The notes under the pieces: model-generated
What the model was told of the DNA's origin: nothing
The model's input: the letters and a program-made list of their open reading frames with translations, nothing else
Database searches by the model: none
Source: Clostridiaceae bacterium
GTDB taxonomy: Bacteria; Bacillota; Clostridia; DSM-8532
DNA: 32,604 bases
Assembly: GCA_012522505.1 (NCBI GenBank)
Contig: JAAYKJ010000051.1
Location: 1-32,604 of the forward strand
Direction of reading: 5' to 3'
Shown: positions 4,466 through 29,902 of the stretch, one piece after another
How positions within the stretch are numbered: the first letter of the stretch is position 1
Layout of the letters: each line of letters begins with the position of its first letter
Made by a program: the position numbers and the translations under genes

Positions 4466-4594
4466 CGGTTTGAAGGAATAGTACGGCCTTTTTGGTGAAT
4501 TGGCCGCCAGCAAAGACTCGTTTTGAATTACGAATATATTGAACAGACTGTTAATATGTTGCATCATATTAAGCAGAAACCTTATCACTTTTAT

Positions 4595-5356: not shown

Positions 5357-5560
5357 GTGTTACACCTCCATAAATTCTGATGTATGGAACGAGTCCAGTA
5401 TTCCTACTATATAATATGTACATGTCCATCGAAGGTGACATAATTTATACAATTTGCGAAACCAAATTATTCTGATCCAGCGGGTTTAATAAGAATCTTC
5501 CACGGGTGCATTCGTGAATGACGCTGCGGTACACCTATGCTTGCGCGTGATTGGCTAATT

Positions 5561-6202: not shown

Positions 6203-6469
6203 AAAAACACTCCATAAATGGTAAAGCTCTTGTGTTACCATTTATTTATTCATGTATTGCCCCGGTTATGATAGGAACCTTGTTTTGGCGTACAATTCGC
6301 GCAGGCGCTCAGTCAATCGGTTTTAGAATGCATCAGACTAATAGAACGGACAAACGTATTTAGATCTGAAAAAGGAAGAGCTTGATTGAAGATGTTTGTT
6401 AAAAAAATATCTAGTCGTCCATGTTGCTAACCAGCCGGAAACAATATAATATGAATGTGAACAGGACAG

Positions 6470-7231: not shown

Positions 7232-7248
7232 CAAGGGAGGATGTCAAA

Positions 7249-8016
7249 ATGTATTACGGAACAGACACTGTGGAAACAGCAGAATTAAATATTCCGGAAA
7301 GAATGAACATATTCCAGAGAATAGGAAATTTGCTATTTTCGCCCTCAAAACTGTTTTCATTTATTAAAAAGAAGCCCACCATTCTTTTTCCGATCATCCT
7401 TATATGTATCGGAGTAATCGCTTTACAGTTAATTTTATGGGAGCCTTTAGAAAAGGTACAAATAGATACCTTGTACAATGCATATAAAAGCGCGGGGATG
7501 AGTGTGGCACCAAGTGAAATAGAGCAAACTGCGAAAGCCCTTATGATAGGTACTATTATAGCTATGCCTTTTGGCTATATAGCGGTCTGGCTTTTTGCAA
7601 CATTGATCCTTTATGCGATGTTTCGTCTGGTAAAGTGTGAAAAGGGCATGAAAAAATACTTTTCCATGGTTGGGTATATCTTCTTAATCTTCATTTTTGG
7701 TCAGCTGATCAATTCAGCATGCATGTATTATACGGGAAATATGACAGCACCTATGGTAACCTCCCTTGCGACGTTCCTTGCTCCGGAAATGAACGGAACC
7801 TTTCTTTATGGGCTGGCATCCGGCATTGAAATTTTTAACGTATGGGCCTTCATTTTGTTTGGAATTGGGTTTGTTTATACCGGTGGTGTAAGCAGAAAAA
7901 AATCATACATAATGACAGCTGTTCTGTTCGTAGTTGTTTTGCTTGCAAGTGCCGGGTTCACTTCTTTACTTGCCGGGGTTCAGAACAGTTTGCAGGGATC
8001 TTACCCGGGTTTATAA
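7249..8016 (+). CDS. Yip1-domain membrane protein, YknW-like
   Basis: Multiple hydrophobic segments; SPSKLFSFIKKKPTILFPIIL start typical of Yip1 proteins; sits between ABC ATPase and membrane-fusion protein. Confidence 0.75.
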   Translation: MYYGTDTVETAELNIPERMNIFQRIGNLLFSPSKLFSFIKKKPTILFPIILICIGVIALQLILWEPLEKVQIDTLYNAYKSAGMSVAPSEIEQTAKALMIGTIIAMPFGYIAVWLFATLILYAMFRLVKCEKGMKKYFSMVGYIFLIFIFGQLINSACMYYTGNMTAPMVTSLATFLAPEMNGTFLYGLASGIEIFNVWAFILFGIGFVYTGGVSRKKSYIMTAVLFVVVLLASAGFTSLLAGVQNSLQGSYPGL

Positions 8017-8040
8017 CAGGATTCAAAAGGAGAATAATCG

Positions 8041-9354
8041 ATGAAGAAATTTTTAATCGCTCTTATCGTAATTGCTGCAATAGCAGGTATGATATATTTC
8101 AGTATCAGCAAAGATTCAGAGCCTACCATAATGTCGGGTACGTCTGCGCGTAATGCTATACCAGTTAAGGCTGTTACAATTGAGACGGGAAGCGTCACCT
8201 CCTATGTAACCGCACCAGGCATGGTAGAAGAGGTGAACAAGTCCCAGGTTTTCTTTGATACACCGCTTCGTGTCATCAAAGTGCTGGTGAATAAAAATGA
8301 TTCTGTACAAAAGGGAGATAAGTTGATTGTTCTGGACACTTCCAGCCTTGAAGATGAAATGGATAGGCTGGCAGTGCAAAAGGAAATTCAATCCATTACG
8401 CTGAAAAAACTGGAGTCTGGCCAGAATTTACTATCACTTGAAGCGCAGTTGGCCTCAGCAAAAAAAGCACTGGAGCAGGCACAGGAGAACCACCAAACAG
8501 CACTGGACGAGTATAATAAACAGCTGGGTTTCTACGAAAAGGGGATCATTCCCAAAACGCAGCTTGATCAGTACGAAAAGGCTGCAAAGGATGTAGAGGC
8601 TGTGGTGGATAACGCACAGCTCAGTTTTGAAAATGCGGAAAAAGCATATCAGTCCAGTGTAGGGGGCCTGGATCTGGATATACAGTCACAGATTAAAAAC
8701 ATAGAACTGTTAAGTTCACAGATTGACGACATCAGAAAAGAATTAAACAAAATCAGGAATCTTGAAAAAGCACCGATTGGTGGGTTTGTGACGGAAGTGA
8801 ATGTGATTGAAGGCGGATACACATATACCGGACAGCCAGCCTTTACGATAATTGATGCAGAAAACCTGCAGATAACCGCCGCAGTCAGTGAGTTCAATAC
8901 AAAAGACATTGCCATAGGGCAGCAGGTTACGATAACCGGGGAGGCCCTGGGGGATGATTTAAAGCTTTCTGGAGAGGTTACCGCTGTCGCACCGATAGCG
9001 ACCAGAATTCAAACAGCAAGCGGCACAGAAACTGTTGTTGAAGTCAGCATTGCCCCGAATGACACCGAAGGTGTTCTAAAACCTGGCTTAAACGTTGACT
9101 GTGACATCATTACTCAAGAGAAGAATGACGTCGTGGTTGCTGAATATAATATTTTTATTGATGAAAGGGATCGAAAACAATATGTTCTCCTGATCGACAC
9201 AGAAAAAATGACGATGAGAAAGCAGTATGTTATTTTGGGTATCTATTCGGATATGCATGTAGAGGTAGTGGACGGTCTGAAGGCTGGGGACGTGGTTGTG
9301 GCAGATCCACAGGCAAGCTACGGTGATGGAGACAGAATCAGGATAATGGAGTAG
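8041..9354 (+). CDS. Membrane-fusion/efflux adaptor (HlyD/MacA, YknX-like)
   Basis: N-terminal TM anchor, biotinyl-lipoyl-like halves, coiled coil, APIGGFVTEVNVIEGGYTYTGQPAFTI; RBS AAAGGAGAA. Confidence 0.9.
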   Translation: MKKFLIALIVIAAIAGMIYFSISKDSEPTIMSGTSARNAIPVKAVTIETGSVTSYVTAPGMVEEVNKSQVFFDTPLRVIKVLVNKNDSVQKGDKLIVLDTSSLEDEMDRLAVQKEIQSITLKKLESGQNLLSLEAQLASAKKALEQAQENHQTALDEYNKQLGFYEKGIIPKTQLDQYEKAAKDVEAVVDNAQLSFENAEKAYQSSVGGLDLDIQSQIKNIELLSSQIDDIRKELNKIRNLEKAPIGGFVTEVNVIEGGYTYTGQPAFTIIDAENLQITAAVSEFNTKDIAIGQQVTITGEALGDDLKLSGEVTAVAPIATRIQTASGTETVVEVSIAPNDTEGVLKPGLNVDCDIITQEKNDVVVAEYNIFIDERDRKQYVLLIDTEKMTMRKQYVILGIYSDMHVEVVDGLKAGDVVVADPQASYGDGDRIRIME

Positions 9355-9358
9355 AAAA

Positions 9359-10561
9359 ATGATTTTATTGGAATTGTTCAAACAGGCTTTCGATAGCTTG
9401 AAATCAAATAAAATGCGCTCCTTTTTGACCATGCTGGGTATTGTAATGGGTGTATTTTCGGTGATCGCCATAATGGCGTTGGGGAATGCAACAGAGAATT
9501 ATATTGTAGGCGAGTTTGAAAAAATCGGAGCCAATACATATAATATTTACAATAAGGGGAGTGATATTACTCAGAACGAGTGGCTTACCCTTAAGGACAT
9601 CAATCTGCTGGAAGAAAACATTCCTGAAATCAAAAACATTACAACACTTGATCAAGGGTTCGGGCAATTAAGGGTAGATTCTGACACAAGGGATGCTATG
9701 ATTAGTGGTGTAACAAGCCAATACAGGAATTTTGCGGTTGTGGATCTGGTCGCTGGTCGGTTTATCAGCAGCTTTGATGACACAGCCAGGGCAAAGGTTG
9801 CGGTTGTGGATGAAAGCTTTGCGAAAAGGTATTTTAACCGGGTTGATATTGTGGGAGAGGAACTGAGCCTGCGCTTAGGTCGATATAATATCAAGGTTAA
9901 GGTTGTCGGAGTTCTCGGCATGGAAAATGACTTTCTCACCGAAATGGCCGGAGATCAAATGCCTGCGATAGTCTTTATGCCGATAAAAACCATTCAATCC
10001 ATTACAGGAAATGAGCGGCTGAGTACCATAATGTTTTCAATTTACCCAGAAGCGGATGTCAAAATGGTCACTGACAAAATAATTGGTCTTCTCGAGAGGA
10101 CACACCGGTCAGAAGACTGCTTTTATCTCCAGTCTATGGACGATGTGCAAAAAATGTTTTCAAGTGTAATCGGCGTAATTACCTCGGTTCTGCTGGTAAT
10201 TGCTGTCATCACACTGATTGTGGGCGGTATAGGTATTATCAATATCCTGCTTGTGTCGGTTACCGAAAGGATTCGGGAAATAGGGATTCGAAAGGCATTG
10301 GGGGCCAAGAAAAGAGATATTGTTATCCAGTTTCTGTTGGAATCCATTCTTATGACCGGAATTGCCGGGATGGTTGGAATCTTTCTGGGTGTTCTGAACG
10401 GGAATGTTATTTCAAGTGTTATTTATATCCCGCCTGCTGTTGATGTTCAGACCATTATCTTGTCTTTTACAATATCGGTTGCATTGGGTCTGATTTTTGG
10501 CGTGTATCCTGCAAAAAAAGCCGCGGACCTCGATCCTATCGAAGCGCTACGCTACGAATAA
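9359..10561 (+). CDS. FtsX/MacB-type ABC permease (YknZ-like)
   Basis: KSNKMRSFLTMLGIVMGVFSVIAIMALG; C-terminal IGIRKALGAKKRDI, GVYPAKKAADLDPIEALRYE. Confidence 0.93.
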   Translation: MILLELFKQAFDSLKSNKMRSFLTMLGIVMGVFSVIAIMALGNATENYIVGEFEKIGANTYNIYNKGSDITQNEWLTLKDINLLEENIPEIKNITTLDQGFGQLRVDSDTRDAMISGVTSQYRNFAVVDLVAGRFISSFDDTARAKVAVVDESFAKRYFNRVDIVGEELSLRLGRYNIKVKVVGVLGMENDFLTEMAGDQMPAIVFMPIKTIQSITGNERLSTIMFSIYPEADVKMVTDKIIGLLERTHRSEDCFYLQSMDDVQKMFSSVIGVITSVLLVIAVITLIVGGIGIINILLVSVTERIREIGIRKALGAKKRDIVIQFLLESILMTGIAGMVGIFLGVLNGNVISSVIYIPPAVDVQTIILSFTISVALGLIFGVYPAKKAADLDPIEALRYE

Positions 10562-10583
10562 TAGCAACATTTCGTGCTCTATA

Positions 10584-10634
10584 ACACACCCATCAGCGGC
10601 GGTTTCAATCCGCTGATTGGGAGGTGTTTTCCAT
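10584..10634 (+). terminator. Intrinsic terminator of the ABC efflux cluster
   Basis: ACACCCATCAGCGG ... CCGCTGATTGGGAGGTGT stem followed by TTT. Confidence 0.7.
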
Positions 10635-10645
10635 TCAATTCCAAA

Positions 10646-10828
10646 TTAAATGTGGGTGCGGTTGAATTGTAGCCTGTACAGCTTTTGATAAGCATTGATG
10701 CGTTTATCCAGCAGATTACTGTACCGTAGTATCTCTTTGCTTTGTAAATTATATTGTTTTACTTGTATGAGATAATTCATTCGTAACTGCATTCCTTTGA
10801 TGAGCATGTATAAAACGAACTTTCTCAC
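10646..10828 (-). CDS. Spo0E-like aspartyl-phosphate phosphatase, ~60 aa
   Basis: SKEILRYSNLLDKRINAYQKL matches the SxxxD signature region of Spo0E-like peptides; GTG start with AAGGAGG RBS. Confidence 0.7.
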   Translation of the reverse strand: MRKFVLYMLIKGMQLRMNYLIQVKQYNLQSKEILRYSNLLDKRINAYQKLYRLQFNRTHI

Positions 10829-11062
10829 CCCTACGACCTCCTTCAACGGAAAAAGAAGATAAAATGCTATTAAAGATACAAAAATCTGTTATAATAGAAT
10901 TAACCGGATTCATTTGTGTACTTCCGTTTTATATTGATTCTGAAGAGGGATATAATAACATTCCTTAGGCCTGCCCGGTTGAAACAGCAAAATATTGCGT
11001 ATATTATGTTTTTACCAATTAAATTTAAAAAGTAACATAAAAAGTGAAAAGCAGGTGCAAAT

Positions 11063-11758
11063 ATGAAAAGAAAAATACTGATTGTTGACGATGAAAAAAA
11101 TATAGTGGATATTTTGAAATTCAATCTGAAAAAAGAGGGTTTTGACACCATTGAAGCATATGACGGAAGACAGGCACTGGAAATGGTTGAACGGGAAAAA
11201 CCAGACCTGATCCTTTTGGATATTATGCTCCCGGAATATGACGGGTTCACGGTATGCAAAAAAATCAGGCAGACGCTGGATACGCCTATATTGATGCTGA
11301 CAGCACGGGAAGAGGAAGTAGACAAGGTTCTTGGGCTGGAGCTCGGTGCAGATGATTATATTACGAAACCTTTCAGTCCAAGGGAACTGATGGCTCGGGT
11401 GAAGGCAAATCTACGGCGGGTTGTTGAAGATGTCCAAAAGGTTCAGGGCGAAGTTCTAACCCGCGGGGACTTAACCATCGATGTGAACCGTTATGAAATT
11501 AAAAGAGATGATGAAACTATCGAGCTTACCCTGCGTGAATTTGAACTGGTGAAATTCCTTGCGATGCAAACAGGACAAATTTTTACAAGGGAAAGCCTTT
11601 TGGAAAAGGTCTGGGGATACGAATATTATGGGGACGTCCGTACCGTTGATGTAACGGTTAGAAGGTTGAGAGAAAAGCTTGAGAGGGTTCCCAGCAGGCC
11701 TGAATACATTCTGACAAAACGCGGAGTGGGTTACTATTTTAATCCCTCGTTAACATAA
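11063..11758 (+). CDS. walR: WalR (YycF) OmpR-family response regulator
   Basis: [54 protein letters not shown], winged helix [25 protein letters not shown]; located before walK. Confidence 0.9.
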
Positions 11759-11942
11759 GGCTGCTGGTAAAAAACCTATTCTTGCGTGAAAGGTTATGTA
11801 AGCTGCCGATTTCAGCTTCCATAGTGTCATCGCCTGTACCGGTGTGGAGATGTCTGAGACCAATTCGATCGCGATGCGTAAATTGTTATATTTAAATAGG
11901 CTGGAATCATCGGAAATCCAATTGAAACACCGGGGGATATGA

Positions 11943-13733
11943 ATGTTTTTACGAAGCTTGCAATGGAGACTGATCATCATAATTGTAGCCATCACCTTTG
12001 TTCTGATGTCTGTTATTTGGGTTTTCCTATTTTATAAGGTGGAGGATATTTTTTACAACGACTTCAAGGATACAGTAACCGATAATTATGCGGTTTTGAA
12101 TATTAACGAAAACATGTCGGTACAGAACCTGATAAAAAAACTGGAAGACGATCCCTATACCCTTAGCCAGCTTGCTGGCAGGGAAAAAAGCTTTACAATT
12201 CTGGATGGGCATACGCATGAAATAGTGTATTCCTTGGATGTTTCCTACAAAAAAAATAAAATAGACTTTCGTAATGAAATCTTGAAATCAGAAAACTTGA
12301 TGGCTGTCATCAACGACAAGAACGAAGGCAAGGAAAAGAAACTTACCCGATCGGCCAAAGGAGATGATTTCTACGATTATGTGAAACGGCAGGCACTGTC
12401 AGATGGCGACTATATTTTATATTTTAAGTACAATCGTTCACAGGCATTACAAATCATTGGTGAATTCAGCAACGTCATCTTTACCGGTATGCTTATTGCG
12501 GTTGCTGTTGCCATTGTAATCGGTTTTCTGCTTTCCAGAACCATAACAAAACCAATCATCGATATTATGCATAAAGCAGAAAACATTACATCCGGCGACT
12601 TCGAACAGGTATTGGAAGTAAAATCCGAAGATGAAATCGGGAAACTTACAAGAACTTTTAACTATATGACAAGCCAGCTGAAAAGCATGCTCAATGAAAT
12701 ATCCAGCGAAAAAAATAAATTTGAACTGATACTGAACTTTATGACCGACGGAATCATTGCGTTTAACCGGGAAGGCCTGATTATTCATATCAATTCAGCA
12801 GCAGTGCGGTTTTTGGAATTACAACACAAAGACCTGACTTTTGAAGGAATCATGGATAAGCTAGGCCTTACATATGCGCTGCCAGATATGCTGGACGAGG
12901 AGAACCTCGCAGATATCAAAGATAATATAACAATACGGGATCGGTTCTACCGGGTAAATTTTGCCTCATTTACGGACAAGGAAAATACAGTTGAGGGGAT
13001 TATTACAGTGATCCAGGATATTACTGAATCACAGAAACTGGATAACATGCGCAAGGAATTTGTGGCCAATGTTTCTCATGAACTGAAAACGCCACTGACG
13101 TCTATAAAAAGCTATTCTGAAACGCTGCTGGACGGTGCCGTTGATGATCCGGAAACCGCAAAAAGCTTTTTGCAGGTAATCTATTTGGAATCCAACAGGA
13201 TGGATCGGATCGTGAAGGATCTGCTCCTTTTATCCAAGCATGACAGCGGGATTCAGTTAAACCTGCAGCGAATATCCCCAACGGAATTGACACAAAGTGT
13301 AATCCAAAATCTTAAGATGACTGCTGACGAGAAACATCAGAAGATTAAGATGGTTGAGACCCAAAAAGCGCCGGATATCTCCGGTGATTGGGACAGGTTG
13401 GAGCAGCTTCTGTTCAATATTGTGGGGAATGCCATTAAATACACACCTGATTATGGCGAAATCGTTGTATATGTAGGAAGAAGAGAGAAGAATGCCTGTA
13501 TCTCGGTTGTGGATAACGGTATTGGAATTCCTGAGCAGGATTTGGGAAGAATTTTTGAAAGGTTTTACCGCGTTGATAAGGCTCGTTCCAGGCAAATGGG
13601 AGGCACAGGACTGGGGTTGTCTATCGCCCGTGAAATTGCAGAATTCCATGGCGGGCATATAGAGGCAAAAAGCGAGCCAAACAAAGGCACCGAGATAACG
13701 ATTATTTTGCCCGGAATTGTGGTGGAGCAATGA
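11943..13733 (+). CDS. walK: WalK (YycG) sensor histidine kinase
   Basis: Two TM segments, HAMP, PAS, FVANVSHELKTPLTSIKSYSETLLDGA, N/G boxes NAIKYTPDYG, DNGIGIPEQD, GTGLGLSIA. Confidence 0.9.
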   Translation: MFLRSLQWRLIIIIVAITFVLMSVIWVFLFYKVEDIFYNDFKDTVTDNYAVLNINENMSVQNLIKKLEDDPYTLSQLAGREKSFTILDGHTHEIVYSLDVSYKKNKIDFRNEILKSENLMAVINDKNEGKEKKLTRSAKGDDFYDYVKRQALSDGDYILYFKYNRSQALQIIGEFSNVIFTGMLIAVAVAIVIGFLLSRTITKPIIDIMHKAENITSGDFEQVLEVKSEDEIGKLTRTFNYMTSQLKSMLNEISSEKNKFELILNFMTDGIIAFNREGLIIHINSAAVRFLELQHKDLTFEGIMDKLGLTYALPDMLDEENLADIKDNITIRDRFYRVNFASFTDKENTVEGIITVIQDITESQKLDNMRKEFVANVSHELKTPLTSIKSYSETLLDGAVDDPETAKSFLQVIYLESNRMDRIVKDLLLLSKHDSGIQLNLQRISPTELTQSVIQNLKMTADEKHQKIKMVETQKAPDISGDWDRLEQLLFNIVGNAIKYTPDYGEIVVYVGRREKNACISVVDNGIGIPEQDLGRIFERFYRVDKARSRQMGGTGLGLSIAREIAEFHGGHIEAKSEPNKGTEITIILPGIVVEQ

Positions 13734-13861
13734 ACAAAGTGAATCAGACAGCGCTCTATCCAGCTGATGCATTCTTTAAAGAGCGGTTCTTCTGCGGTAG
13801 TATAAAGCCAGTTAATTTTACTGTAGATATACGAGGATAATTTGTATGGGTGATGTCCAGT

Positions 13862-14266
13862 TTACAAAAACAGGGCCTGGAATACTTCCTGACCGGGCAA
13901 AACCTTGATGCATTGCATCAGGGTTTCTGATTCGCCATATTTTGCTCTTATTGTATAAAAACCCGGGGGTAACTCTTCCAGTTTGAAACGACCATTAAAC
14001 TCCGATTTTGTTCTGGAAACCGGAAAGTTGCTCTCATTTCCGAAATATAAAAGTATTCCCACATCATTTACGATGCGTTTTTGCCTTCCATAATATGTTA
14101 TACCGGTGATCTTGCCTGAATAATCCATTTTTTCATTGTTTACAACCAGATGTATGCGCTGTGTGTTATTCTGGACAGGCATTACATCCATATTCTGTTC
14201 CTGGTCCAAATCCTGGCAATTGTATTGCAAGCTCTCTTTTTCCAAAACCGCTTGATCCGTTTCCAT
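13862..14266 (-). CDS. Small protein with carboxypeptidase-regulatory-like beta fold, function unknown
   Basis: SGKITGITYYG...VGILLYFGN...SRTKSEFNGRFKLEELPPGFYTIRAKYGES resembles CarboxypepD_reg-like segments. Confidence 0.55.
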   Translation of the reverse strand: METDQAVLEKESLQYNCQDLDQEQNMDVMPVQNNTQRIHLVVNNEKMDYSGKITGITYYGRQKRIVNDVGILLYFGNESNFPVSRTKSEFNGRFKLEELPPGFYTIRAKYGESETLMQCIKVLPGQEVFQALFL

Positions 14267-14387
14267 TTTACATACCCCGTTTCTACGCTGAGAAATCTTC
14301 GCATGCGCCCATTGAACTCGTTATTTTTCATCTGTATGTTATATGCAGTGTGGCAAGGCAAAATACCACACTGCACGTATGTTTTAA

Positions 14388-14720
14388 TTAATAATATTTC
14401 GTTTTCTTTTCAGGATTTTCTGCCTTTGCTTCAGCACTGCTTTCAGCCTCTGCTTCCACCTCGTTTTTGATCTTTGCTTTAACGTCAGCATCCACATCTG
14501 TTTTAGTCTTTGATACATTCTCCACCTTCGCATCAGAATCTGCGTCGGTTTCTGCGGTCTGACCCTGACTCTGCTTCTGTGTCAGGTAGTTATAGTTGAT
14601 TTGTTTGTTGGTCTGTTTCTGACGTGTTTCCTGTTCAGCTTCCACCTCTGCCTCCAATTCTGCCTTTATCTCTGCCTTCAACTTACTCTTCAATTCAGCA
14701 TAATCATATTCTATCACCAT
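14388..14720 (-). CDS. Low-complexity A/E/K/D-rich, probably coiled-coil protein of unknown function
   Basis: MVIEYDYAELKSKLKAEIKAELEAEVEAEQETRQ...; strong RBS GGAAGGAGGTG before ATG 14720. Confidence 0.65.
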   Translation of the reverse strand: MVIEYDYAELKSKLKAEIKAELEAEVEAEQETRQKQTNKQINYNYLTQKQSQGQTAETDADSDAKVENVSKTKTDVDADVKAKIKNEVEAEAESSAEAKAENPEKKTKYY

Positions 14721-15018
14721 GAAGCACCTCCTTCCCTGCATTATGATTGAACTAATACATATTATGCAATTCACGAAAAAAGGTTAACCGTAAATTACAT
14801 CAATTCCCGCGAATAATATTCCAAACACCTATTCGCACTAAATCCTCTCTGTTTCGTTATGAAAGGCAAAAAAGCGATAAGGATAATTGAGGTAAAAAAT
14901 CATATCTTTACTTAATCAGCATCTATATGTAAAATAGAGTTTAAACAACACGATAATATTAAAAATGTCTGAAATAGACAGAAACATAAAAATCACCATG
15001 TTTCAGGGGGTATACATA

Positions 15019-16719
15019 TTGGATATCATTGGAATTGATCTTGGTACTACAAACAGTCTGGTTGCAATCTGGACCGAGAACGGCCCGAGGATTATCCCAA
15101 ACGTTTTCGGCTCTGGTATTACGCCATCAATTGTAAGTGTCGATGACTCAGGAGAAATATATGTCGGGGAAATAGCCCGCGAGAGAATGATTACGCATCC
15201 ATACATGACTGCCTCCAATTTCAAGCGGTACATGGGAACGGAAAAAGTATATCCATTAGGGAATTACAAGTTTAAACCAGAAGAATTGTCGTCCTTTGTG
15301 CTCCGTTCTCTGAAATCCGACGCAGAAGCCTATCTTGGAGTGGAGGTAAACGAAGCGGTTATCAGTGTGCCTGCTTATTTTAATGATGCGCAGCGAAAAG
15401 CTACAAAGCGGGCTGGTGAACTGGCGGGCCTTAAGGTTGAGAGGCTTGTCACTGAGCCCACAGCAGCTGCCATCGCTTATGGTCTTCATCTGAAAGAATC
15501 AGAAACGAAATTTCTCGTGTTTGATCTGGGTGGCGGAACATTCGATGTTTCCATACTTGAATTGTTTGAAGGTATTATGGAAGTGAAATCCATTGCCGGC
15601 GATAATTTTCTTGGTGGGGAGGACTTCACGGATGCTTTGACCTCCTACTTTGTCGAGAAATGCAATGTCGATCTCCAAAGTATGGATCTAAAAGAACTAA
15701 CTAAATTAAAAAAGCATGCTGAGCTATGCAAACGCCAGCTGACAGCGGGCTCAGATGCAAAATTCTGCTTGATGCAGGGGGATAAGAGCTATGAAGCGGA
15801 TTTGGACAAGAACAAATTTGAAATGATAGTGGCTAATCTATTGCTGCGGTTACGCCAGCCCGTAGAGAGAGCTTTGAGAGATGCGTCCTTAAAGCCACAG
15901 GATATGGATGCTGTTATTCTGATTGGTGGGGCGACAAGAATGCCTGTAATACGTAATGTAGTGTCCAAAATGTTTGGACGGCTTCCATATACAAGTATCA
16001 ACCCCGATGAGACCGTGGCCTTGGGAGCTGCAATACAGGCAGCGCTCAAGGAAAGGAATGAATCGTTGAACGAAATAATCCTTACAGATGTATGCCCCTA
16101 TTCATTGGGTGTTCAGATCGTCCGTGACATGGGAAACGGTCAGTTTGAAGGAGGGTACTTTCTTCCCATTATTGAAAGGAATACTCCGATTCCAGTGAGC
16201 AGGGCAGAGGTTCTTGAAACGATTGAGGATAATCAGACATGCATCCAACTTGAAATTTACCAGGGTGAAAGCCGAAAGGTAGAAAACAATATTCGTATCG
16301 GTGAATTAAGCTGTAGTATCCCCCCTGCGCCTGCCGGAAAACAGATGATCGACGTACGCTTCACATACGATATCAATGGATTGCTTGAAGTGGAGGCAGT
16401 TGCCCTGGAAACAGGCATCAAACACAAGATTGTTATAGAAAACAGCCCAGGCAGCATGACGCCAAAAGAAATTGAAGAACGGCTGCAGGAGCTTCAGAAG
16501 CTGAAAATCCATCCGCGGGACAGGGCCGAAAATAAGCTGTTGCTTTCCAGAGGGGAACGATTGTATGAAGAATCCCTTGGTGAAATGCGTGCTTGGGTAT
16601 CCAGACTCCTTGCAGATTTTGAAAATGTTCTGTCCAGGCAGAATGACAAGGAGATCAAGGTGTTTGCAGCGAAGTTGAAAGAGAAGCTGGAAGAGGTTGA
16701 GAGGCGGTTGGGGTTCTAG
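15019..16719 (+). CDS. hscC: HscC-like Hsp70 chaperone
   Basis: [75 protein letters not shown] 15019 with AGGGGG RBS fits better than the 14965 ORF start. Confidence 0.88.
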
Positions 16720-18047
16720 TGGACATGTGGAAGATTCTTGAAATTGAACCTACCGACGATATGTCGGCTGTAAAGAAGGCATACGCAAGAAAGCTGAGGC
16801 TTCATCATCCAGAGGATGATCCGGTAGGTTATCAGAGGCTGCGTGAAGCATTTGACCAAATACTAAATATAAACAAAATGCTCGGGCAAGAGTCTGAGGA
16901 TGGATTGCCCCGTTCTTTTTCCACACAGGTTGCAGAAGTAGAGGAAGAGGACACAATAGAGGTTGTACCGGATACCATCATGCCTCCGAAAAAGATATGG
17001 TTAGATCTTGATGTTTATGAACCCCCCGATGTTACAGAACTGAATGACCTGTTTGTGTCACAGGCCGAAGCTTTGTATGGTGACTATTTTTCCAGAGTAA
17101 ATGTAGAAAATTGGAAAACACTATTGAAGCATGAAGCGGTATGGAATATAGGAAACAGGGAACGACTTGGTATTAGAATGCTTCATTTTTTCTCGGATCA
17201 TCATTATATCACTCAGGAAGTATGGCAGCTGCTCAATCATGTTTTCAACTGGTTTGACCATGAGGTAACGGGAAACAGCTACAGCGAATATTCTGAATTA
17301 TTGAAGTATATCCAAAGCCAATTACAACAAGAAAACCCACCGAGCTTCCCTTGTTTTAATACTGACAAGCCTATAGAATACGATAAGTTTCTGGAACTTC
17401 GTGAAAATGTGAAGAGCGCATTCGAGGGAAACGATCTTGAGAAAATGGAACGGTTTATCGATGAGGGGGAAATGATATATGACAAGGATCCTGACATGCT
17501 TTGCCTGAAATCAAAGCTACAGTTACGAAAAAATTCGTATCGGGAAGCAGTTTTAACCTTAACCAAATTGCTGGAAGTCAAGCCGAACGATGAATGGGCG
17601 TCTTTTTATCGGTTCATTGCCATATATGAAAGCTCACAGAAGGCTCAGGATTATGCGCAATTAAGCGACGCATGTTCCTGTGGCTCTCAAAAAGACCAAG
17701 TCGCCGTTAGCGTGGCGAATGCATATATTGAAATTGGTTGCTTTGAAAGGGCAGAGTGTTGGCTTCAAAAGGCTATCAAACTAAAGAGGTCAAATCTAGA
17801 GGAACACTATCTGCTCAGCAAAGTCTACACGGCTATCCAGAAAAGACTAATGGATGAACTGAGTCATAGTCCGGGCAGCCCTGTATTGATTCAGCAGTCG
17901 AACGAATTATCAAACAAGATGCGTAAGAATTACAGAAAGATCGCAAAGAAGCGAGAGCAAGATTCTTACCGGATCTATAGGATCATGGTTTTAATATTTA
18001 CAGCGATGATGATAATTCTCTATTGCATCAATCTACTGGTAAGATAA
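16719..18047 (+). CDS. J-domain-like co-chaperone (DjlB/DjlC-like) with TPR-like region and C-terminal TM anchor
   Basis: MWKILEIEPTDDMSAVKKAYARKLRLHHPEDDPVGYQRLREAFDQIL; C-terminal IMVLIFTAMMIILYCINLLVR; start overlaps hscC stop. Confidence 0.8.
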   Translation: MDMWKILEIEPTDDMSAVKKAYARKLRLHHPEDDPVGYQRLREAFDQILNINKMLGQESEDGLPRSFSTQVAEVEEEDTIEVVPDTIMPPKKIWLDLDVYEPPDVTELNDLFVSQAEALYGDYFSRVNVENWKTLLKHEAVWNIGNRERLGIRMLHFFSDHHYITQEVWQLLNHVFNWFDHEVTGNSYSEYSELLKYIQSQLQQENPPSFPCFNTDKPIEYDKFLELRENVKSAFEGNDLEKMERFIDEGEMIYDKDPDMLCLKSKLQLRKNSYREAVLTLTKLLEVKPNDEWASFYRFIAIYESSQKAQDYAQLSDACSCGSQKDQVAVSVANAYIEIGCFERAECWLQKAIKLKRSNLEEHYLLSKVYTAIQKRLMDELSHSPGSPVLIQQSNELSNKMRKNYRKIAKKREQDSYRIYRIMVLIFTAMMIILYCINLLVR

Positions 18048-21366: not shown

Positions 21367-21414
21367 GTTATAATGGTTACATATTCCGGGAAACCATTAT
21401 AACTTATCCGGAAT
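21367..21414 (+). promoter_or_regulatory. Promoter with interlocking inverted repeats upstream of murA
   Basis: TTGTCG(21345)-N18-TATAAT(21369); GTTATAATGGTT/AACCATTATAAC 12-bp perfect repeat interlocked with ATTCCGG/CCGGAAT. Confidence 0.5.
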
Positions 21415-21460
21415 GTCAGATCAGTTTTTTACAAAAGAATGGGAAAGATGGTGTTGGACA

Positions 21461-22720
21461 TTGGAGAAACTGGTTATCCACGGGCAAAAACGGCTGAAGG
21501 GGGAAGTCACCGTCAGCGGTGCAAAGAATGCAGCTGTAGCAATACTTCCCGCAGCGATCCTATCGGATGGTCACTGTACAATTGAAAATATTCCGGATAT
21601 ATTGGATATTTCTATTCTCAAGAACATCTTGACCAATCTCGGTGCCAGAATTGAGCATCTGAATGATTCCTCCATTCGAATTGATACTTCCAAAGTAAAT
21701 TCATATACTGCCACCGATAAGCAAATCGGAAACCTTCGTGCATCCTATTACCTAATGGGTGCCCTGTTGGGCAGGTTTAAAAAGGCAGTTGTCACTTTTC
21801 CAGGAGGGTGTGACTTTGGAGTAAGGCCAATAGACCAGCATATCAAGGGGTTTGAAGCACTGGGTGCTAAAGTGGAAATTGAACATGGCAAGGTGATCAT
21901 TAATGCAAACAAGTTGATCGGTGCGCCAATCTATCTGGATGTCGTCAGCGTGGGGGCAACCATCAATATTATGCTTGCTGCAGTGAAGGCAGAGGGAATT
22001 ACTACGATTGAAAATCCAGCCAAGGAACCCCACATTGTCGATCTCGCCAACTTCTTAAACGCGATGGGTGCCGACATTAAAGGAGCCGGAACGGATGTTA
22101 TCAAGATCAGAGGTGTTCGTGAACTAAAAGGTGGACATGTTTACACGATCATCCCGGACCAGATTGAAGCGGGTACCTTTAAGATAGCTGCAGCAGCTAC
22201 CCGTGGGGATGTCCTTGTTAAAAATATCATACCAAAGCATATGGAATCCCTAACTGCAAAGCTTATGGAAATGAATGTCCGGGTGCAAGAATATGATGAC
22301 AGCATCCGTGTATCCAGTAAAGACAAAATACAAAATGTAAATATAAAAACTTTGCCTTATCCGGGGTTTCCTACCGACCTTCACCCCCCTGTAACCGCTC
22401 TCCTTTGCCGGGCAGAAGGTACCAGCATTATTACAGAAGGTGTTTGGGATAATCGCTTTCAGTATGTGGACGAGTTAAAAAGGATGGGTGCAAAAATAAA
22501 GGTGGAAGGGCGGATGGCTGTCATTGACGGTTCGGTACGCCTTACCGGGGCTCCGATACGAGCGCTTGATCTAAGAGCCGGGGCTGCCATGGTCATTGCT
22601 GGACTGATGGCCCGAGGCGAGACTACCGTTTCAAATATACACTATATTGACAGGGGCTATGAAAAGCTTGATGAAAAGCTGAGAGCTCTTGGAGCAGACA
22701 TTCAACGAATACAGGAGTGA
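21461..22720 (+). CDS. murA: UDP-N-acetylglucosamine 1-carboxyvinyltransferase
   Basis: [41 protein letters not shown] with catalytic Cys, [16 protein letters not shown] 21461 likely start. Confidence 0.93.
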
Positions 22721-22729
22721 TCAGCGAAG

Positions 22730-23521
22730 ATGATAAAACTTGCCAGCCTTTACAGTGGAAGTAGTGGGAATGCCATTTATATAACAAACAATAACACGAA
22801 TATTTTGGTGGATTCCGGGTTAAGCGGTAAAAGGATTGAAGAATCCATTGCTTATGTTGGAGGATGTATGCAGGATATCCATGGCATACTGATCAGTCAT
22901 GAGCATACCGATCATATCTTGGGTGCAGGAATTCTTTCAAGGCGCTACAACATTCCCATCTATGCAAACAACAAAACCTGGAATGCCATGCGTAGTAATC
23001 TGAAAAAGATACCAGACGGGTGCATCCGTACATTTCGAACAGGTGAGTGCTTTGAAATAGGAGATATTACTGTGCGTTCCTTTCCAACGCCCCATGATGC
23101 TGCCGAGCCGGTGGGCTTCAACTTTGAGTGCGGAAATAAAAAAGTGACTGTTGCCACCGATATTGGGCATATCCATGACGAGCTTCTGGCGAATCTTGAA
23201 GGCAGTGACTTGATTTTGATAGAATCAAACCATGATGTTGAAATGCTTAAGGTGGGGCGCTATCCCTGGCCATTGAAGCAACGAATTCTGGGAGATTCGG
23301 GGCATCTTTGCAATGAACTGGCGGCAAAGGTGGTCACCCACCTTGCGGTAATGGGAACCCAGAAGTTTTTGCTTGGCCACTTAAGCAAAGAGAATAATTT
23401 TCCCGAACTCGCGTTTGAAACCGTGAAAAACGCATTGTGTGAAAGGTCTATCCTTGCCGGGAGGGATGTATACCTTGGTGTGGCACGACGGGACAGACCC
23501 AGTGAAGCGATCTGCGTATAA
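22730..23521 (+). CDS. yycJ: YycJ/WalJ metallo-beta-lactamase-fold hydrolase
   Basis: LASLYSGSSGNAIYI, ISHEHTDHILGAG, TDIGHI, LIESNHD, GHLSKENN. Confidence 0.92.
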   Translation: MIKLASLYSGSSGNAIYITNNNTNILVDSGLSGKRIEESIAYVGGCMQDIHGILISHEHTDHILGAGILSRRYNIPIYANNKTWNAMRSNLKKIPDGCIRTFRTGECFEIGDITVRSFPTPHDAAEPVGFNFECGNKKVTVATDIGHIHDELLANLEGSDLILIESNHDVEMLKVGRYPWPLKQRILGDSGHLCNELAAKVVTHLAVMGTQKFLLGHLSKENNFPELAFETVKNALCERSILAGRDVYLGVARRDRPSEAICV

Positions 23522-23526
23522 GTCAG

Positions 23527-23554
23527 GATAATCAATTTATTGAAATTGATTATC
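23527..23554. repeat. Perfect 12-bp inverted repeat (AT-rich hairpin)
   Basis: GATAATCAATTT-ATTG-AAATTGATTATC between yycJ and rlmH, no T-tract. Confidence 0.8.
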
Positions 23555-23662
23555 AGGCATACGGTTACAGCATTTACGCTCAGGCTTGCATTTTCTCTGA
23601 TATGAAACCGGGCTCAATTGCATGAAACCATGCAGGTATTGTTTATATGAAAGGTTTTTGAA

Positions 23663-24142
23663 GTGCAGATTCAAATTATATCGGTCGGAAAACTGAAAGA
23701 AAAATACTTAAGGGATGCCGTTTTGGAGTATACCAAACGGCTTTCTCGTTTCTGCTCAATTAAAATACTGGAGGTTTCGGAGGAAAAGGCTCCGGAAACC
23801 TTATCAATTGCTGAAGAAGAGCAAGTAAAAAGAAAAGAGGCGGATAAAATCAAAGCCGCCCTTTCCAAAAACACCTTCACCATCGTACTCGATCTTAAGG
23901 GAGAACAACTGGACTCGATACAGTTCTCGAATAAGCTATCTACCTGGATGATTCAGGGGAAAAGCCACATCACATTCATCCTGGGTGGTTCAATCGGTCT
24001 GGATCGTCAGCTTGTCAAAGAGGCGGATTACAACCTTTGTCTTTCCAACATGACATTTCCGCACCAGCTTTCCAGAGTAATTCTTCTGGAGCAGATCTAC
24101 CGCGGCTTTAAGATTATGCGTAATGAGACCTATCATAAATAA
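23663..24142 (+). CDS. rlmH: 23S rRNA (pseudouridine1915-N3)-methyltransferase RlmH
   Basis: MQIQIISVGKLKEKYLRDAVLEYTKRL, FILGGSIGLD, LSNMTFPHQLSRVILLEQIYRGFKIMRNETYHK. Confidence 0.96.
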   Translation: MQIQIISVGKLKEKYLRDAVLEYTKRLSRFCSIKILEVSEEKAPETLSIAEEEQVKRKEADKIKAALSKNTFTIVLDLKGEQLDSIQFSNKLSTWMIQGKSHITFILGGSIGLDRQLVKEADYNLCLSNMTFPHQLSRVILLEQIYRGFKIMRNETYHK

Positions 24143-24358: not shown

Positions 24359-24530
24359 TCTTTCAGGATGCCATTGAATTCCATAAAGCAGTGTGGTAAA
24401 ATTTATGCATTCACTCCATGTCTACTAAGTATATAGCCTATATATGATATGTAGACATAAACACGAAAGTGCTACCATTGTCTTGTGCAATGGGCAATTA
24501 AGCCATTCACCGTTGAAAGGAGTAATTCGT

Positions 24531-25316
24531 ATGGTAAAAAGCATCACGATTCTTCCAGGCAGCAACAGGCAGGGCAATCCTGAATTTAAGGAAAGCATCG
24601 AACTTAAAATGGGAAATGTCATCAGTATCGTAGGACCAACCGGTTCCGGGAAGACAACGCTGATCAACGACATTGAGCTGCTATCCGACGGCACTACCCC
24701 GACAGGACGCCGGATTTTGATCAACAATGCTCTCCCACCGGCCGATTATCGCAATAACCCATCCAGAAATCCCATCGCCCTGATCACCCAACATACCACC
24801 TTTCTATCAGATCTGCCTGTACATGAATTCCTGTTCATGCATGCCAGAATCCGCAATAAAAATGACCAGCATGTATCGGAACTGATTCAAAAAACAATTG
24901 ATTTTGCAAACCAGCTTACCGGGGAACCGATTATCACCAACAGTAAAATGACGGAGCTTTCAGGAGGTCAGACCAGAGCTTTATTGATCGCCGATGCAGC
25001 CGTCATCTGCGATACACCTGTCGTCCTTCTGGATGAAGTTGAAAATGCGGGAATCCATCGTACACGTGCTTTGGAATTGCTCCGCAGGCATGAGAAGATC
25101 TTTGTCTTTGTCACCCATGATCCGCGGATTGCCCTTCTTTCGGATTTCCGTGTAATCATGAAGGAGGGTGGAATTGCACAGGTTCTGTATACCAACCATG
25201 TGGAAAGGGATTTTGCTGAAAGGGTGACCAAACTCGACGATGTGCTCGGATCCCTACGGGAAATTATCAGAAAAGGTGAACGTCTTACCACCGAAGCATT
25301 GGAGGGAGTATTATGA
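24531..25316 (+). CDS. Stand-alone (soluble) ABC-type ATPase
   Basis: Walker A GPTGSGKTT, signature LSGGQTRALLIADAAV, Walker B VVLLDEVENAG, H-loop THD; RBS AAAGGAG; no permease nearby. Confidence 0.85.
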   Translation: MVKSITILPGSNRQGNPEFKESIELKMGNVISIVGPTGSGKTTLINDIELLSDGTTPTGRRILINNALPPADYRNNPSRNPIALITQHTTFLSDLPVHEFLFMHARIRNKNDQHVSELIQKTIDFANQLTGEPIITNSKMTELSGGQTRALLIADAAVICDTPVVLLDEVENAGIHRTRALELLRRHEKIFVFVTHDPRIALLSDFRVIMKEGGIAQVLYTNHVERDFAERVTKLDDVLGSLREIIRKGERLTTEALEGVL

Positions 25317-26014
25317 AGCTGTGTATTTGCGCGGGACCTGCTACCACGGGGAAAACATCTGTTTTGCGGCATGTTATCAAAAAGCTGATCACAATGAACC
25401 TGAAATCGGCATATTTGAAAATTGATGTTCAATATGCGGAAGAAGACGAACTGCTTGCATCTGAATTCGGTATTCCTACCAGAAAAATTTATTCCGGTGA
25501 GCTATGCCCTGATCATTGCAATGTGGTTGTTCTGGGCGAAACACTGGAATGGGCGCAAAGTGTTTCCAGTGACATCCTTCTGGTAGAGACTGCTGGGCTA
25601 TGTTTAAGATGCTCACCTTATGTGGATGGAGGGATGGGAATAATCGTCCTTGAAGCCACCAGCGGAATAAATCTTCCCCTTAAGGTGGGGCCAATGCTAT
25701 CTCTGGCCGACACTGCCGTCATCACAAAAATTGATCGGGTTTCACAGGCTGAACGGGAGGTCTTCAGGATGCGGATCCAGGATGTTGCGCCATCGGTCAG
25801 GATTCGTGAGGTAAACGCCCTCCACGGTATTGGGATTGATCCTCTTGTAGAGCAGATTACACAGATGGGTGATATACATGAAAACATGCTGCTGAGGGGG
25901 AACCCTCCGGTTGGCACCTGCACTATCTGTGTAGGAAAAAAGGAAATTGGCTGGAAACAACATTTCGGCATTGTCAGAAAGCTCCATGGAGAAGTGTTTT
26001 ACCAGGGAGAATGA
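25313..26014 (+). CDS. HypB/UreG-like P-loop GTPase with Cys motifs
   Basis: Walker A GPATTGKTS, G4-like TKID, SGELCPDHC, AGLCLRCSPYVDGG, GTCTICVGKKEIGW; ATGA overlap with upstream gene. Confidence 0.78.
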   Translation: MKLCICAGPATTGKTSVLRHVIKKLITMNLKSAYLKIDVQYAEEDELLASEFGIPTRKIYSGELCPDHCNVVVLGETLEWAQSVSSDILLVETAGLCLRCSPYVDGGMGIIVLEATSGINLPLKVGPMLSLADTAVITKIDRVSQAEREVFRMRIQDVAPSVRIREVNALHGIGIDPLVEQITQMGDIHENMLLRGNPPVGTCTICVGKKEIGWKQHFGIVRKLHGEVFYQGE

Positions 26015-26044
26015 TTAAAAATTTTTTGAAGGAGGAATATCCGA

Positions 26045-26758
26045 ATGATTAATTCCAGGAATGAAGTGATATTGCCCGGCTTGGACTGTGGCCTATGCGG
26101 CTGCAAAACCTGTGAGGAATTTTCCGGGCTCATGAAAAGAGAGCCGGATCTCATGAAGCGATGTCTGCATTTGGACAAGTCCCTGATCAGCTCCAAAATA
26201 GAACCCGCTGTGCCATCTGATGCACAGATAGCCATCAACGCCTGCACCGCAGCCTGCCCGACCTGTAGTGAGAACACCTCTTTGAAAGAGGGGTGGGTAG
26301 ATTCTCTTGGTAGAGATTTTGATTTCATTCTCGATCTGTTCCCTAATGAACCCGGGCCCAGGGAAACCATCCTCCCCCATAACCCTCTTATCACCATAGA
26401 AATGAACATTCAGCCCGGAGATATTCTTATCGGAAGGCCTTTGGGCATGTCATGTGGTTGCCCGGTGACCCATTGCGGAGTTGTCATGGAGGTGGATCAG
26501 AGGACAGGCGTTATCGTCTGGTGTGTCACCGGGCCTTTAAGCGCCCGCAGGAATGGCTTTAAGGATCTGGGCTACTACTCGGCTGAGGCTTACGACGGTA
26601 TTGTTTTAAGGTCAAAATCTGAATTGAAAATCGGATACCGTTATTGGTTCATGCCGCATAGGTGCATGCTGCAATGGAGGCACAGCGGGTTGGTTAATTT
26701 TCTGAAGCAGACGCCGGAAGGGCTTCATGTCCGCGTGGAAGGGTTGTTCATCGGGTAA
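26045..26758 (+). CDS. Cys-rich (Fe-S)-binding protein
   Basis: LDCGLCGCKTCEEFSGLM (PF04060-like), CTAACPTCSEN, MSCGCPVTHCGVV; RBS GAAGGAGG. Confidence 0.78.
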   Translation: MINSRNEVILPGLDCGLCGCKTCEEFSGLMKREPDLMKRCLHLDKSLISSKIEPAVPSDAQIAINACTAACPTCSENTSLKEGWVDSLGRDFDFILDLFPNEPGPRETILPHNPLITIEMNIQPGDILIGRPLGMSCGCPVTHCGVVMEVDQRTGVIVWCVTGPLSARRNGFKDLGYYSAEAYDGIVLRSKSELKIGYRYWFMPHRCMLQWRHSGLVNFLKQTPEGLHVRVEGLFIG

Positions 26759-26954: not shown

Positions 26955-27047
26955 ATGTTCTTCAGCTTTGATACTGCACTGCAAGAACAAATGTTTCAGA
27001 ATATGCCAAAAAGCTATGGCATATTTTTTTTTGTTTTGGTACAATGA
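26955..27047 (+). CDS. Possible 30-aa small ORF with strong RBS
   Basis: AAAAGGAGACGTAACAATG start; MFFSFDTALQEQMFQNMPKSYGIFFFVLVQ*; 3' part overlaps a hairpin + T9. Confidence 0.3.
   Translation: MFFSFDTALQEQMFQNMPKSYGIFFFVLVQ
27001..27032 (+). terminator. Intrinsic terminator upstream of the methylase gene
   Basis: ATATGCCA-AAAAGCTA-TGGCATAT perfect 8-bp stem followed by a T run. Confidence 0.75.
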
Positions 27048-28033: not shown

Positions 28034-29902
28034 ATGCAGGTTAACGGACAGACAGATGGGATAAAGAAGAGTGTTCTTGACGCCCTGGTGTTATTGTATG
28101 ATGTTAAGGTTCCTAAAGATCAGATATTTACAGAAGAGATGGTGTCTTTGCTTGCAGAAATCTCTTCTGCCATCAACCGCGAACTCGCCGTTTATATAGA
28201 CAGAAAGGGTAATGTTAAGGATGTAAGAGTAGGCGATAGCAGAACCGTCAGCCTATATCCTGCAGACAACAGGAAAAAAGAAACGGGTTTATCGGGGATT
28301 CGTTGTATCCATACGCATCCGGGAGGGTCCACAGCCTTGTCAGAGCTGGATATCAGTACGCTGAAACAGCTGCGGTTGGACATTATTGTCGCGATTGGGG
28401 CTTTGAACGGAAAAATAACCGGTGTATCTGCTGCCATACTGGACGCAGATCTGGATAAGGCTGAGATATATGGCCCTTTTAAGCCCATGCAGCCTGAACT
28501 GCACGAATTGGCGATCTTGGCAGCCGAAAGAGAAAACAAAGGCAGGGAAATGAATGTCATTGTGCAGGAAGGCAAGGAACGGGCTTTGCTGATAGGCATT
28601 GAAACCTCGAAGACACCTGTCATTTCGGGTGTCAGTGAAGCTGAAATCTCCATGAAGGAATTGGTCGAACTGACGAAAACCGCAGGAGCTGAAGTGGTCG
28701 AAGCCATCGTTCAGAAAAGGCCCATCCGTGATGCCACTTATTTGGTGGGAAAAGGCAAGCTAAAAGAGATCAAGCAGATCGTTCAAACGAAAGATATCGA
28801 TCTGATCGTTTTTGATGAAGAATTATCCAGCTCCCAGATCCGAAATATTGAGGCCAATACCGGCGTAAAGGTTGTGGACAGAACCGGTTTGATTCTTGAT
28901 ATCTTCGCAGGCAGGGCAAAATCAAGAGAGGGCCGGGTTCAGGTTGAGCTGGCGCAGCTGAATTATCTGCTACCTAAGCTGTCCGGGCAGGGTACCGCTT
29001 TGTCCAGGTTGGGGGGTGGCATCGGTACAAGAGGCCCTGGTGAGACACAGCTTGAAACAGACAGGCGTCATATCCGCAGACGGATTGACTACCTGAAAAC
29101 CCAACTGAGCGAAATTAAAAGCCAGCGACAGGTTGTGCGGCGTGAAAGGGAGAAAACCCAAATCCCCCTGGTAGCGCTTGTCGGGTATACCAATGCAGGC
29201 AAATCAACTCTGTTGAACGCCTTATGCGCCGCTGAGGTTTTTGTTGAAGATAAACTGTTTGCCACACTGGATACAACCACAAGAAAGCTCGCACTCGATG
29301 AGACGACAACCGTATTGTTATCGGATACCGTTGGTTTTATCCGAAAGTTGCCTCACCACTTGGTAGATGCGTTTAAAGCTACCCTGGAAGAAGCTGTTCT
29401 GGCCGATCTGCTTATCATCGTCGCTGACGCTGCAGATCCTTTTGCGCCGGATCATATCCGGGTTGTGGATGAAATTTTAAGTGAACTGGGGGCATCCGGC
29501 AAACCTTCTCTTGTGGTATGGAACAAATGGGACAGGGTCGATGCTGATTTTCGTACGCCCTATTTCGGGGATGGAAGGGAAGAGCTCAATGTATCAGCAT
29601 TAACCGGCAAGGGCCTGGAAGACCTAAAGGTAGCAATCAAAAAGGTGCTGGAACCACAGACCGAAGTGGTAAAGCTGATTATTCCCATCACCGAGGGTTG
29701 GGTGCTGCCATACCTGTATGAGAATGGAACAGTAAATGAAGTTGCATATGACGAAAATAACGCTGTTGCAGAGGTGAAGATCGATAAAAAATGCATCAGC
29801 CGCATTCGACCATTTATGATGACCCAATCTGTTGGAAAACAGGCGCCAGGCCAGAATCAAAATGTTGGTGAAAATGGTTATGATCCATCCTGCAAGCAAT
29901 AG
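28034..29902 (+). CDS. hflX: HflX GTPase with N-terminal JAMM-like extension
   Basis: HflX core GKGKLKEI, DRTGLILDIFAGRA, GGIGTRGPGETQLETDRR, GYTNAGKSTLLNAL, LSDTVGF, NKWD; N-terminal RELAVYIDRKGN...CIHTHPGGSTALSELD. Confidence 0.93.
   Translation: MQVNGQTDGIKKSVLDALVLLYDVKVPKDQIFTEEMVSLLAEISSAINRELAVYIDRKGNVKDVRVGDSRTVSLYPADNRKKETGLSGIRCIHTHPGGSTALSELDISTLKQLRLDIIVAIGALNGKITGVSAAILDADLDKAEIYGPFKPMQPELHELAILAAERENKGREMNVIVQEGKERALLIGIETSKTPVISGVSEAEISMKELVELTKTAGAEVVEAIVQKRPIRDATYLVGKGKLKEIKQIVQTKDIDLIVFDEELSSSQIRNIEANTGVKVVDRTGLILDIFAGRAKSREGRVQVELAQLNYLLPKLSGQGTALSRLGGGIGTRGPGETQLETDRRHIRRRIDYLKTQLSEIKSQRQVVRREREKTQIPLVALVGYTNAGKSTLLNALCAAEVFVEDKLFATLDTTTRKLALDETTTVLLSDTVGFIRKLPHHLVDAFKATLEEAVLADLLIIVADAADPFAPDHIRVVDEILSELGASGKPSLVVWNKWDRVDADFRTPYFGDGREELNVSALTGKGLEDLKVAIKKVLEPQTEVVKLIIPITEGWVLPYLYENGTVNEVAYDENNAVAEVKIDKKCISRIRPFMMTQSVGKQAPGQNQNVGENGYDPSCKQ

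Follow-up and report, generated by a model that had tools for sequence, protein, structure and literature searches.

A conserved three-gene module of a permease-less ABC ATPase, a HypB/UreG-like GTPase and an Fe-S protein, with a probable role in metal-cofactor assembly or delivery

Introduction

What might a cell do with a soluble ABC ATPase encoded beside a GTPase of the HypB/UreG kind and a cysteine-rich Fe-S protein? The question is raised by three adjacent genes in a stretch of 32,604 nucleotides of a Clostridiaceae bacterium (contig JAAYKJ010000051.1), which was analyzed as a whole and is referred to here as the window. An original prediction, made from the sequence alone, had read them as an ATP- and GTP-driven machine that assembles or inserts a metallocluster into an enzyme encoded elsewhere. 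Known cofactor-assembly systems are few (Isc, Suf, Nif, Hyp, Ure, and Coo), and the range of anaerobic metalloenzymes available to a cell depends on such systems.

Results

Organization of the Locus

The trio and its signals are arranged as follows:

24516..24522, + strand: ribosome-binding site of the ATPase gene, AAAGGAG (sequence)
24531..25316, + strand: P0001, soluble ABC-type ATPase of 261 amino acids, no permease partner (Pfam and motifs)
25301..25305, + strand: ribosome-binding site of the GTPase gene, GGAGG (sequence)
25313..26014, + strand: P0002, G3E-type GTPase of 233 amino acids with the UreG/HypB fold; its gene overlaps the ATPase gene by ATGA (Pfam, NCBIfam, Foldseek)
26030..26036, + strand: ribosome-binding site of the Fe-S protein gene, AGGAGGA (sequence)
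26045..26758, + strand: P0003, Fe-S protein of 237 amino acids with a CFeSP-type [4Fe-4S] domain, a variable linker and a beta-rich domain without a PDB match
26998..27027, + strand: possible intrinsic terminator 3′ of the trio, an 11-bp stem followed by a T run (consensus scan only)

The sequence agrees with the layout originally described, namely three genes at these positions, an ATGA overlap between the first two, a gap of 30 bp between the GTPase and P0003 genes, and a good ribosome-binding site before each. An alternative ATPase start upstream, at 24444, would give a longer reading frame, but the ribosome-binding site backs 24531, which is therefore the start we use. No RNA element, riboswitches included, was found at the gathering threshold. 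Further downstream, at 28034-29902, the window encodes an HflX-like GTPase, of which Pfam covers only residues 206-498; it carries about 200 extra N-terminal residues with HTHPGGSTALSELD, resembling a JAMM/RadC motif.

The Trio Is a Conserved Module With a Patchy Distribution

The relatives fall into three groups: A, with 65-79% identity to the window GTPase; B, a Bacillota set at about 55%; and C, a distant set. A scan of named genomes returned 333 relatives, of which the best 80 are the group A loci analyzed here; they come from Omnitrophota, Chloroflexota, Planctomycetota, Verrucomicrobiota, Actinomycetota, Acidobacteriota, Pseudomonadota, Heliobacterium, archaea, and others. All three genes were present in 70 of these 80 best loci and the ATPase and GTPase in 78; eight loci were without P0003, several of them at contig ends. 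A search of 399 genomes from Bacillota gave a full-domain match to P0003 in 24 others, and in every one the GTPase gene adjoins it, as does the ATPase gene as far as the contig allowed. These 24, defined by a P0002 match at E<=1e-78 together with a P0003 match, were also the ones returned when the same 399 genomes were searched with the GTPase, at about 55% identity and separated by a clear gap from a set at 36-44%. The recurrence of the gene set across phyla puts it far beyond chance. The check for co-occurrence that had been proposed therefore came out in favor of the trio, in 70 of 80 named-genome loci and 24 of 24 Bacillota genomes, and its homologs are kept together instead of being dispersed: the three genes are one conserved module.

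Closer to home the picture is different. P0003 is absent from 60 relatives of the window genome, taken from the same genus, family, order, and class. In a tree of the GTPases, the window sequence falls within group A with 99% SH-aLRT support (38 group A rows plus the window, in a quick tree with one support value) and apart from group B, the group of its own phylum. Since the clade spans many phyla and is missing from those 60 relatives, the trio was probably gained by horizontal transfer; this is the simplest account, with loss in the relatives as the alternative. The block that precedes the trio (21413-24142; EPSP-synthase-type, metallo-beta-lactamase, and rlmH genes) is common to same-genus relatives, and the place that follows is variable: in two same-genus genomes the position of the trio after rlmH is taken by other genes, and one of these genomes has, further downstream of rlmH, a DNA methylase gene resembling the one found 3′ of the trio in the window. 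A plasmid collection held no match to P0003, and matches to P0001 and P0002 were limited to a Fusobacterium record of the distant clade and ordinary HypB. We found no description of this gene combination in the literature searched, in which our reach into subscription journals was limited. The module is thus widespread and undescribed; its components belong to known families, except for one domain of no known fold.

The ATPase Has No Permease Partner

The motifs of the ATPase are intact:

24633..24659, + strand: Walker A, GPTGSGKTT (sequence)
24957..24971, + strand: ABC signature, LSGGQ (sequence)

P0001 matches ABC_tran at 3.7e-16, above the curated Pfam cut-off, and also has an intact Walker B (VVLLDE) and H-loop (THD); the form [LM]SGGQ is kept in 92 of the 92 complete relatives checked. 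By a simple hydropathy count, a multi-spanning protein occurs in the contiguous gene string of 6 out of 100 group A and B loci. Judged from these strings, a permease is not part of the trio, and the original reading of an ATPase with all ABC motifs and no transmembrane partner nearby holds well beyond the window; consistent adjacency to a permease is not what the relatives show. An ordinary ABC importer with its permease encoded elsewhere could account for the complete ABC motifs, for the scores of the ATPase on transporter models, and for the SBP_bac_6-like third partner of group C (see below). We nevertheless consider it very unlikely. Not only do 94 of the 100 loci have no multi-spanning protein in the gene string, but the ATPase is also paired with the GTPase in three clades and its best NCBIfam transporter model scores 57 bits against a cut-off of 482, while the SBP-like partner in Fusobacterium starts with DUF1858 and has no evident signal peptide. 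Among the NCBIfam models listed, none reaches its curated cut-off for P0001, P0002, or P0003. PADLOC returned only ABC/AAA-type ATPase hits to P0001 and nothing for P0002 or P0003, so a role in anti-phage defence was rejected.

The GTPase Carries a Putative HypB-Like Metal Site

The motifs of interest in P0002 are:

25505..25516, + strand: CPDH (C65, H68), aligned with the Cys-His metal site of HypB (alignment)
25601..25612, + strand: CLRC (C97, C100), with C100 in the segment aligned with the second metal-binding Cys of HypB (alignment)
25725..25736, in the GTPase: G4 motif TKID, not the canonical NKxD; [TN]KxD in relatives
25919..25930, + strand: C-terminal CTIC (C203, C206) (alignment)

P0002 is a cobW/HypB/UreG protein in Pfam (1.9e-9, above the curated cut-off), and its predicted model (pLDDT 78, pTM 0.79) had UreG (6.8e-11) and HypB (3.0e-10) as best Foldseek matches. 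C65, H68, and C100 lie in segments aligned with HypB, whose corresponding Cys-His and Cys we take to be nickel ligands, so that a G3E fold goes together with a putative metal site. The motifs CPDH, AGxCxRC, and a terminal CxxC are found in all 133 GTPases from the three clades; CPDH is kept in 100 of 100 sequences of groups A and B and in 33 of 33 of group C, and CTIC is invariant in A and B, with C..C retained in 33 of 33 of group C. The P-loop and three Cys pairs originally proposed for this protein mostly stand: CLRC and CTIC do, and so does the C65/H68 part of CPDHC, but its last residue, C69, is Ala in group B. As the G4 motif is TKID and not NKxD, specificity for GTP is only presumed. 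Fold and aligned ligand segments bear out the assignment to the HypB/UreG kind, and support a HypB/UreG-like GTPase with conserved, putative metal ligands.

With HypB and UreG the protein shares the fold, the P-loop, and, by alignment, the putative Cys-His and Cys metal ligands. It differs from them in its extra C-terminal CxxC, in TKxD, in scores below the cut-offs (49.2 bits against 121.2 for hypB, TIGR00073; 22.4 against 204 for ureG, TIGR00101), and in its partners, which are an ABC ATPase and an Fe-S protein and not HypA or UreEFH. COG0523/CobW is defined by a CxCC motif (PMC9164220), and there is none in the P0002 sequence.

The Fe-S Protein Combines a CFeSP-Type Domain With a Domain of No Known Fold

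Three segments of P0003 hold its universal Cys and His residues:

26087..26164, + strand: predicted [4Fe-4S] ligands C15, C18, C23, and C40, invariant in 60 of 60 aligned sequences
26453..26476, + strand: CGCPVTHC, part of SCGCPVTHC; C139 and H143 universal, C137 and C144 in subgroup A only (alignment)
26663..26683, + strand: C207 and H213, universal; with C139 and H143 a predicted second metal site (conservation only)

An Fe-S motif at the N-terminus had been anticipated, and the domain indeed scores above the cut-off of PF04060 (2.7e-5; 24.2 bits against 23), while a profile match limited to positions 7-55 links it to the large subunit of CFeSP (4djd_C, 4.8e-6). The sequence CTAACPTC (residues 67-74), which had been included in that motif, does not belong to it: it lies in a variable, unconserved linker where the AlphaFold pLDDT is below 50 (residues 49-79), and the predicted fourth ligand is C40. 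Over residues 81-237 the pLDDT is mostly above 90. No Pfam family exceeds its cut-off in the C-terminal 150 residues, and a Foldseek search of the PDB with the beta-rich domain gave a best E of 0.03, a poor match with a TM of 0.16. The Cys cluster SCGCPVTHC was right in part, because C139 and H143 are universal, as opposed to C137 and C144, which are confined to the subgroup of the window; together with H112 and C160 these are group A extras missing from group B. From conservation, C139, H143, C207, and H213 are candidates for a second metal site; its group A version may be larger and of the metal-sulfur kind. An N-terminal [4Fe-4S] domain of the PF04060 type is common to P0003, the CFeSP large subunit, and RnfB; the rest of P0003 is unrelated in sequence to the CFeSP large subunit, whose TIM barrel and corrinoid-contacting part were not matched, and no fold match was found in the PDB.

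Linked Genes Point to Sulfur

In 41 of the 80 group A loci a NifS/IscS-type cysteine desulfurase (class-V aminotransferase, PF00266) is encoded between the GTPase and Fe-S protein genes; there were four more hits within 1.5 kb and nearly none elsewhere in the group A flanks. Upstream, an Rrf2 regulator (PF02082) is common, with 38 hits within 1.5 kb and a density there of 0.18 per kb, against 0.004-0.007 farther out. These partners fit with work on a metal-sulfur cofactor. The window copy has neither gene, however, and since group B as a whole and half of group A likewise have no linked desulfurase, sulfur need not take part everywhere. An Rrf2 regulator and a NifS/IscS-type desulfurase are also features of Isc and Nif operons, but IscU/NifU is found neither in the window operon nor among the recurrent neighbors of the relatives, IscSU being encoded separately, and the Cys cluster of IscR is missing from most of the Rrf2 proteins that were inspected.

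A minority of group A loci have CysK (17), MetY/Z (13), MetX (4), or MetW (4) genes nearby. The amino-acid part of this link (MetY/Z) is weak, as the density does not drop with distance, and we rate the link to cysteine and methionine genes as moderate. At four group B loci of two related families (f114/f151) the trio comes immediately after ComA, or after ComA and ComB, and in a Thermoleophilia genome of group A (L081) ComA follows within about 20 bases, which amounts to two independent contacts with sulfonate chemistry. The same Thermoleophilia MAG has two phosphosulfolactate synthase (ComA) genes, at 12726-13448 and 16112-16864, and a TauE/SafE-like gene downstream of the operon. Such neighbors would also suit a trio that is itself an enzyme of sulfur metabolism (acting, for example, on sulfite, sulfonates, or thioethers), with P0003 as the catalytic protein and the two NTPases driving turnover, and a domain with invariant Cys and His and no fold match could be expected of it. 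We judge this unlikely, as siroheme sulfite reductase-type genes do not split carriers from non-carriers, the ComA contacts are just two independent events, and the G3E GTPases studied so far serve in metalloenzyme maturation or metal homeostasis (PMC9164220).

Candidate Clients and Housekeeping Fe-S Assembly

Nitrogenase-like and CODH-type enzymes had been suggested as neighbors to look for. Nitrogenase-like gene pairs do lie beside the trio in Heliobacterium mobile (L068) and Pararhodospirillum oryzae (L057); in the former (4220-17070), a string of Rrf2, ATPase, GTPase, NifS, FeS, and MetY/Z genes is placed between two such pairs and a URO-D-like protein. These contacts would fit a dedicated maturation system for nitrogenase-like enzymes, for example methylthio-alkane reductase, and this could hold locally. 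As a general account it is extremely unlikely, since no PF00148 match exceeds the cut-off in the window genome or in four other carriers (Omnitrophota L036, L040, and L113, and Thermoguttaceae L050), which excludes these enzymes as obligatory clients. The CODH suggestion did not survive either: PF03063 (CODH/Hcp) also occurs in relatives without the trio, and a CODH/Hcp client was rejected. Likewise, PF01077 fails to separate carriers from non-carriers, and an alternative to sulfite reductase was discarded.

Replacement of the housekeeping Isc system is not supported, as IscU/NifU_N is encoded in almost all carriers and also in relatives that lack the trio. The window genome encodes IscS-IscU on contig 209, a possible sulfur source, and because the pair is found there and in the trio-less relatives, the module adds to housekeeping assembly without replacing it. 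The trio is like SUF in having a soluble ABC ATPase (as SufC), no permease, a metal-sulfur context, and, in relatives, a desulfurase. It differs in that SufB/D is in neither the module nor the window genome (PF01458 absent there, present in 14 of 14 control genomes), and its scaffold would be another protein.

A Distant Group Exchanges the Third Protein

In group C (L143:6823-9807 of Fusobacterium vincentii, NZ_CP084075.1, and L144-L175) every locus with enough contig to show both genes retains the GTPase-ATPase pair, and P0003 was not found. Instead, 25 of the 33 loci have a solute-binding-protein-like neighbor, which in Fusobacterium is a DUF1858-SBP_bac_6 fusion whose start has no evident signal peptide. 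Since P0003 is swapped for an SBP-like partner, the ATPase-GTPase pair appears as the constant engine and the third protein as an exchangeable carrier. Often there are further neighbors: Hcp-like genes at 8 loci, Crp/Fnr-type regulators at 12 (both families recognized by eye), or iron/cobalamin-type transporters. In L144, L157, L166, and L171 the pair is followed by a protein that by its look is DUF4213/DUF364-like, presumably a putative heavy-metal chelation family, with iron/cobalamin-type ABC transporters near three of them. The group C context of SBP_bac_6-type, Hcp, and Crp/Fnr proteins points to ligand binding or repair more than to one fixed assembly task.

This bears on a reading in which ATP and GTP serve to charge the existing cofactor of a client with low-potential electrons from the CFeSP-like [4Fe-4S] domain, or to mend it, as in the ATP-driven activation of MCR, and no cofactor is built. 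The Hcp and Crp/Fnr neighbors, which resemble an HcpR/Hcp nitrosative stress context, and the CFeSP/RnfB electron-transfer type of the Fe-S domain both agree with it. The desulfurase inside 41 group A operons, however, suits assembly better than pure electron transfer, and no HypB-like GTPase is known to us that takes part in electron activation. Methanogens do have a precedent in component A2, an ABC ATPase that drives metalloenzyme activation, and the MCR activation complex (component A2, McrC, and Mmp proteins) likewise brings an ABC ATPase and Fe-S partners to a metal centre (PMC12176620). No HypB-like GTPase is described in that complex, however, and A2 is a single chain with two ABC domains, while the trio is mainly bacterial and matched no protein of the complex in the searches run. 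Overall, we regard activation or repair as possible but rather doubtful.

Discussion

By the tests run, the trio is not HypB, UreG, COG0523, SUF, CFeSP, or a transporter. Probably it represents an as yet undescribed machine by which metal cofactors are built or delivered. Our preferred reading, held with a confidence barely above even, is of a module that works in the cytoplasm, driven by nucleotides, assembling a metal or metal-sulfur centre or handing it to a client protein, and that serves sulfur metabolism. The metallocluster machine of the original prediction is thus the best reading available, at about even confidence: linkage, folds, and partners speak for it, and the client is the part that did not come through.

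For such a module we infer the identity of the metal, the hydrolysis of the nucleotides, the formation of a complex, and the direction of transfer. The HypB/UreG-like GTPase would bind a transition metal via C65, H68, and C100, with C97 and the C-terminal CTIC pair as further ligands, and would pass it on upon GTP hydrolysis. P0003 would act as carrier or as scaffold, with the CFeSP-like [4Fe-4S] domain giving electrons or holding a cluster and its C139/H143/C207/H213 site taking up the metal, and the subgroup A extras C137, C144, C160, and H112 would allow a larger metal-sulfur site. Sulfur would come from the NifS/IscS-type desulfurase often found inside the operon or, in the window genome, from the housekeeping IscS. 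A dimer of the ABC ATPase, working with no membrane partner, would reshape the carrier upon ATP binding, as SufC and component A2 do.

A broader and more tentative idea is that groups A, B, and C represent an undescribed class of cofactor machines, in which an ABC ATPase without a permease, in permanent partnership with a HypB/UreG-like GTPase, would use exchangeable carriers (a new-fold Fe-S protein in A and B; in C, an SBP-like carrier, probably cytoplasmic and in some cases with DUF1858) to move metals or metal-sulfur clusters inside the cell, following the logic of an ABC importer without the membrane.

The module is widespread in little-studied phyla, is apparently horizontally mobile, and probably uses two different NTPs. 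If a metal-sulfur centre is indeed what it builds or delivers, its carrier genomes would form a list in which to seek an unrecognized, sulfur-linked client enzyme.
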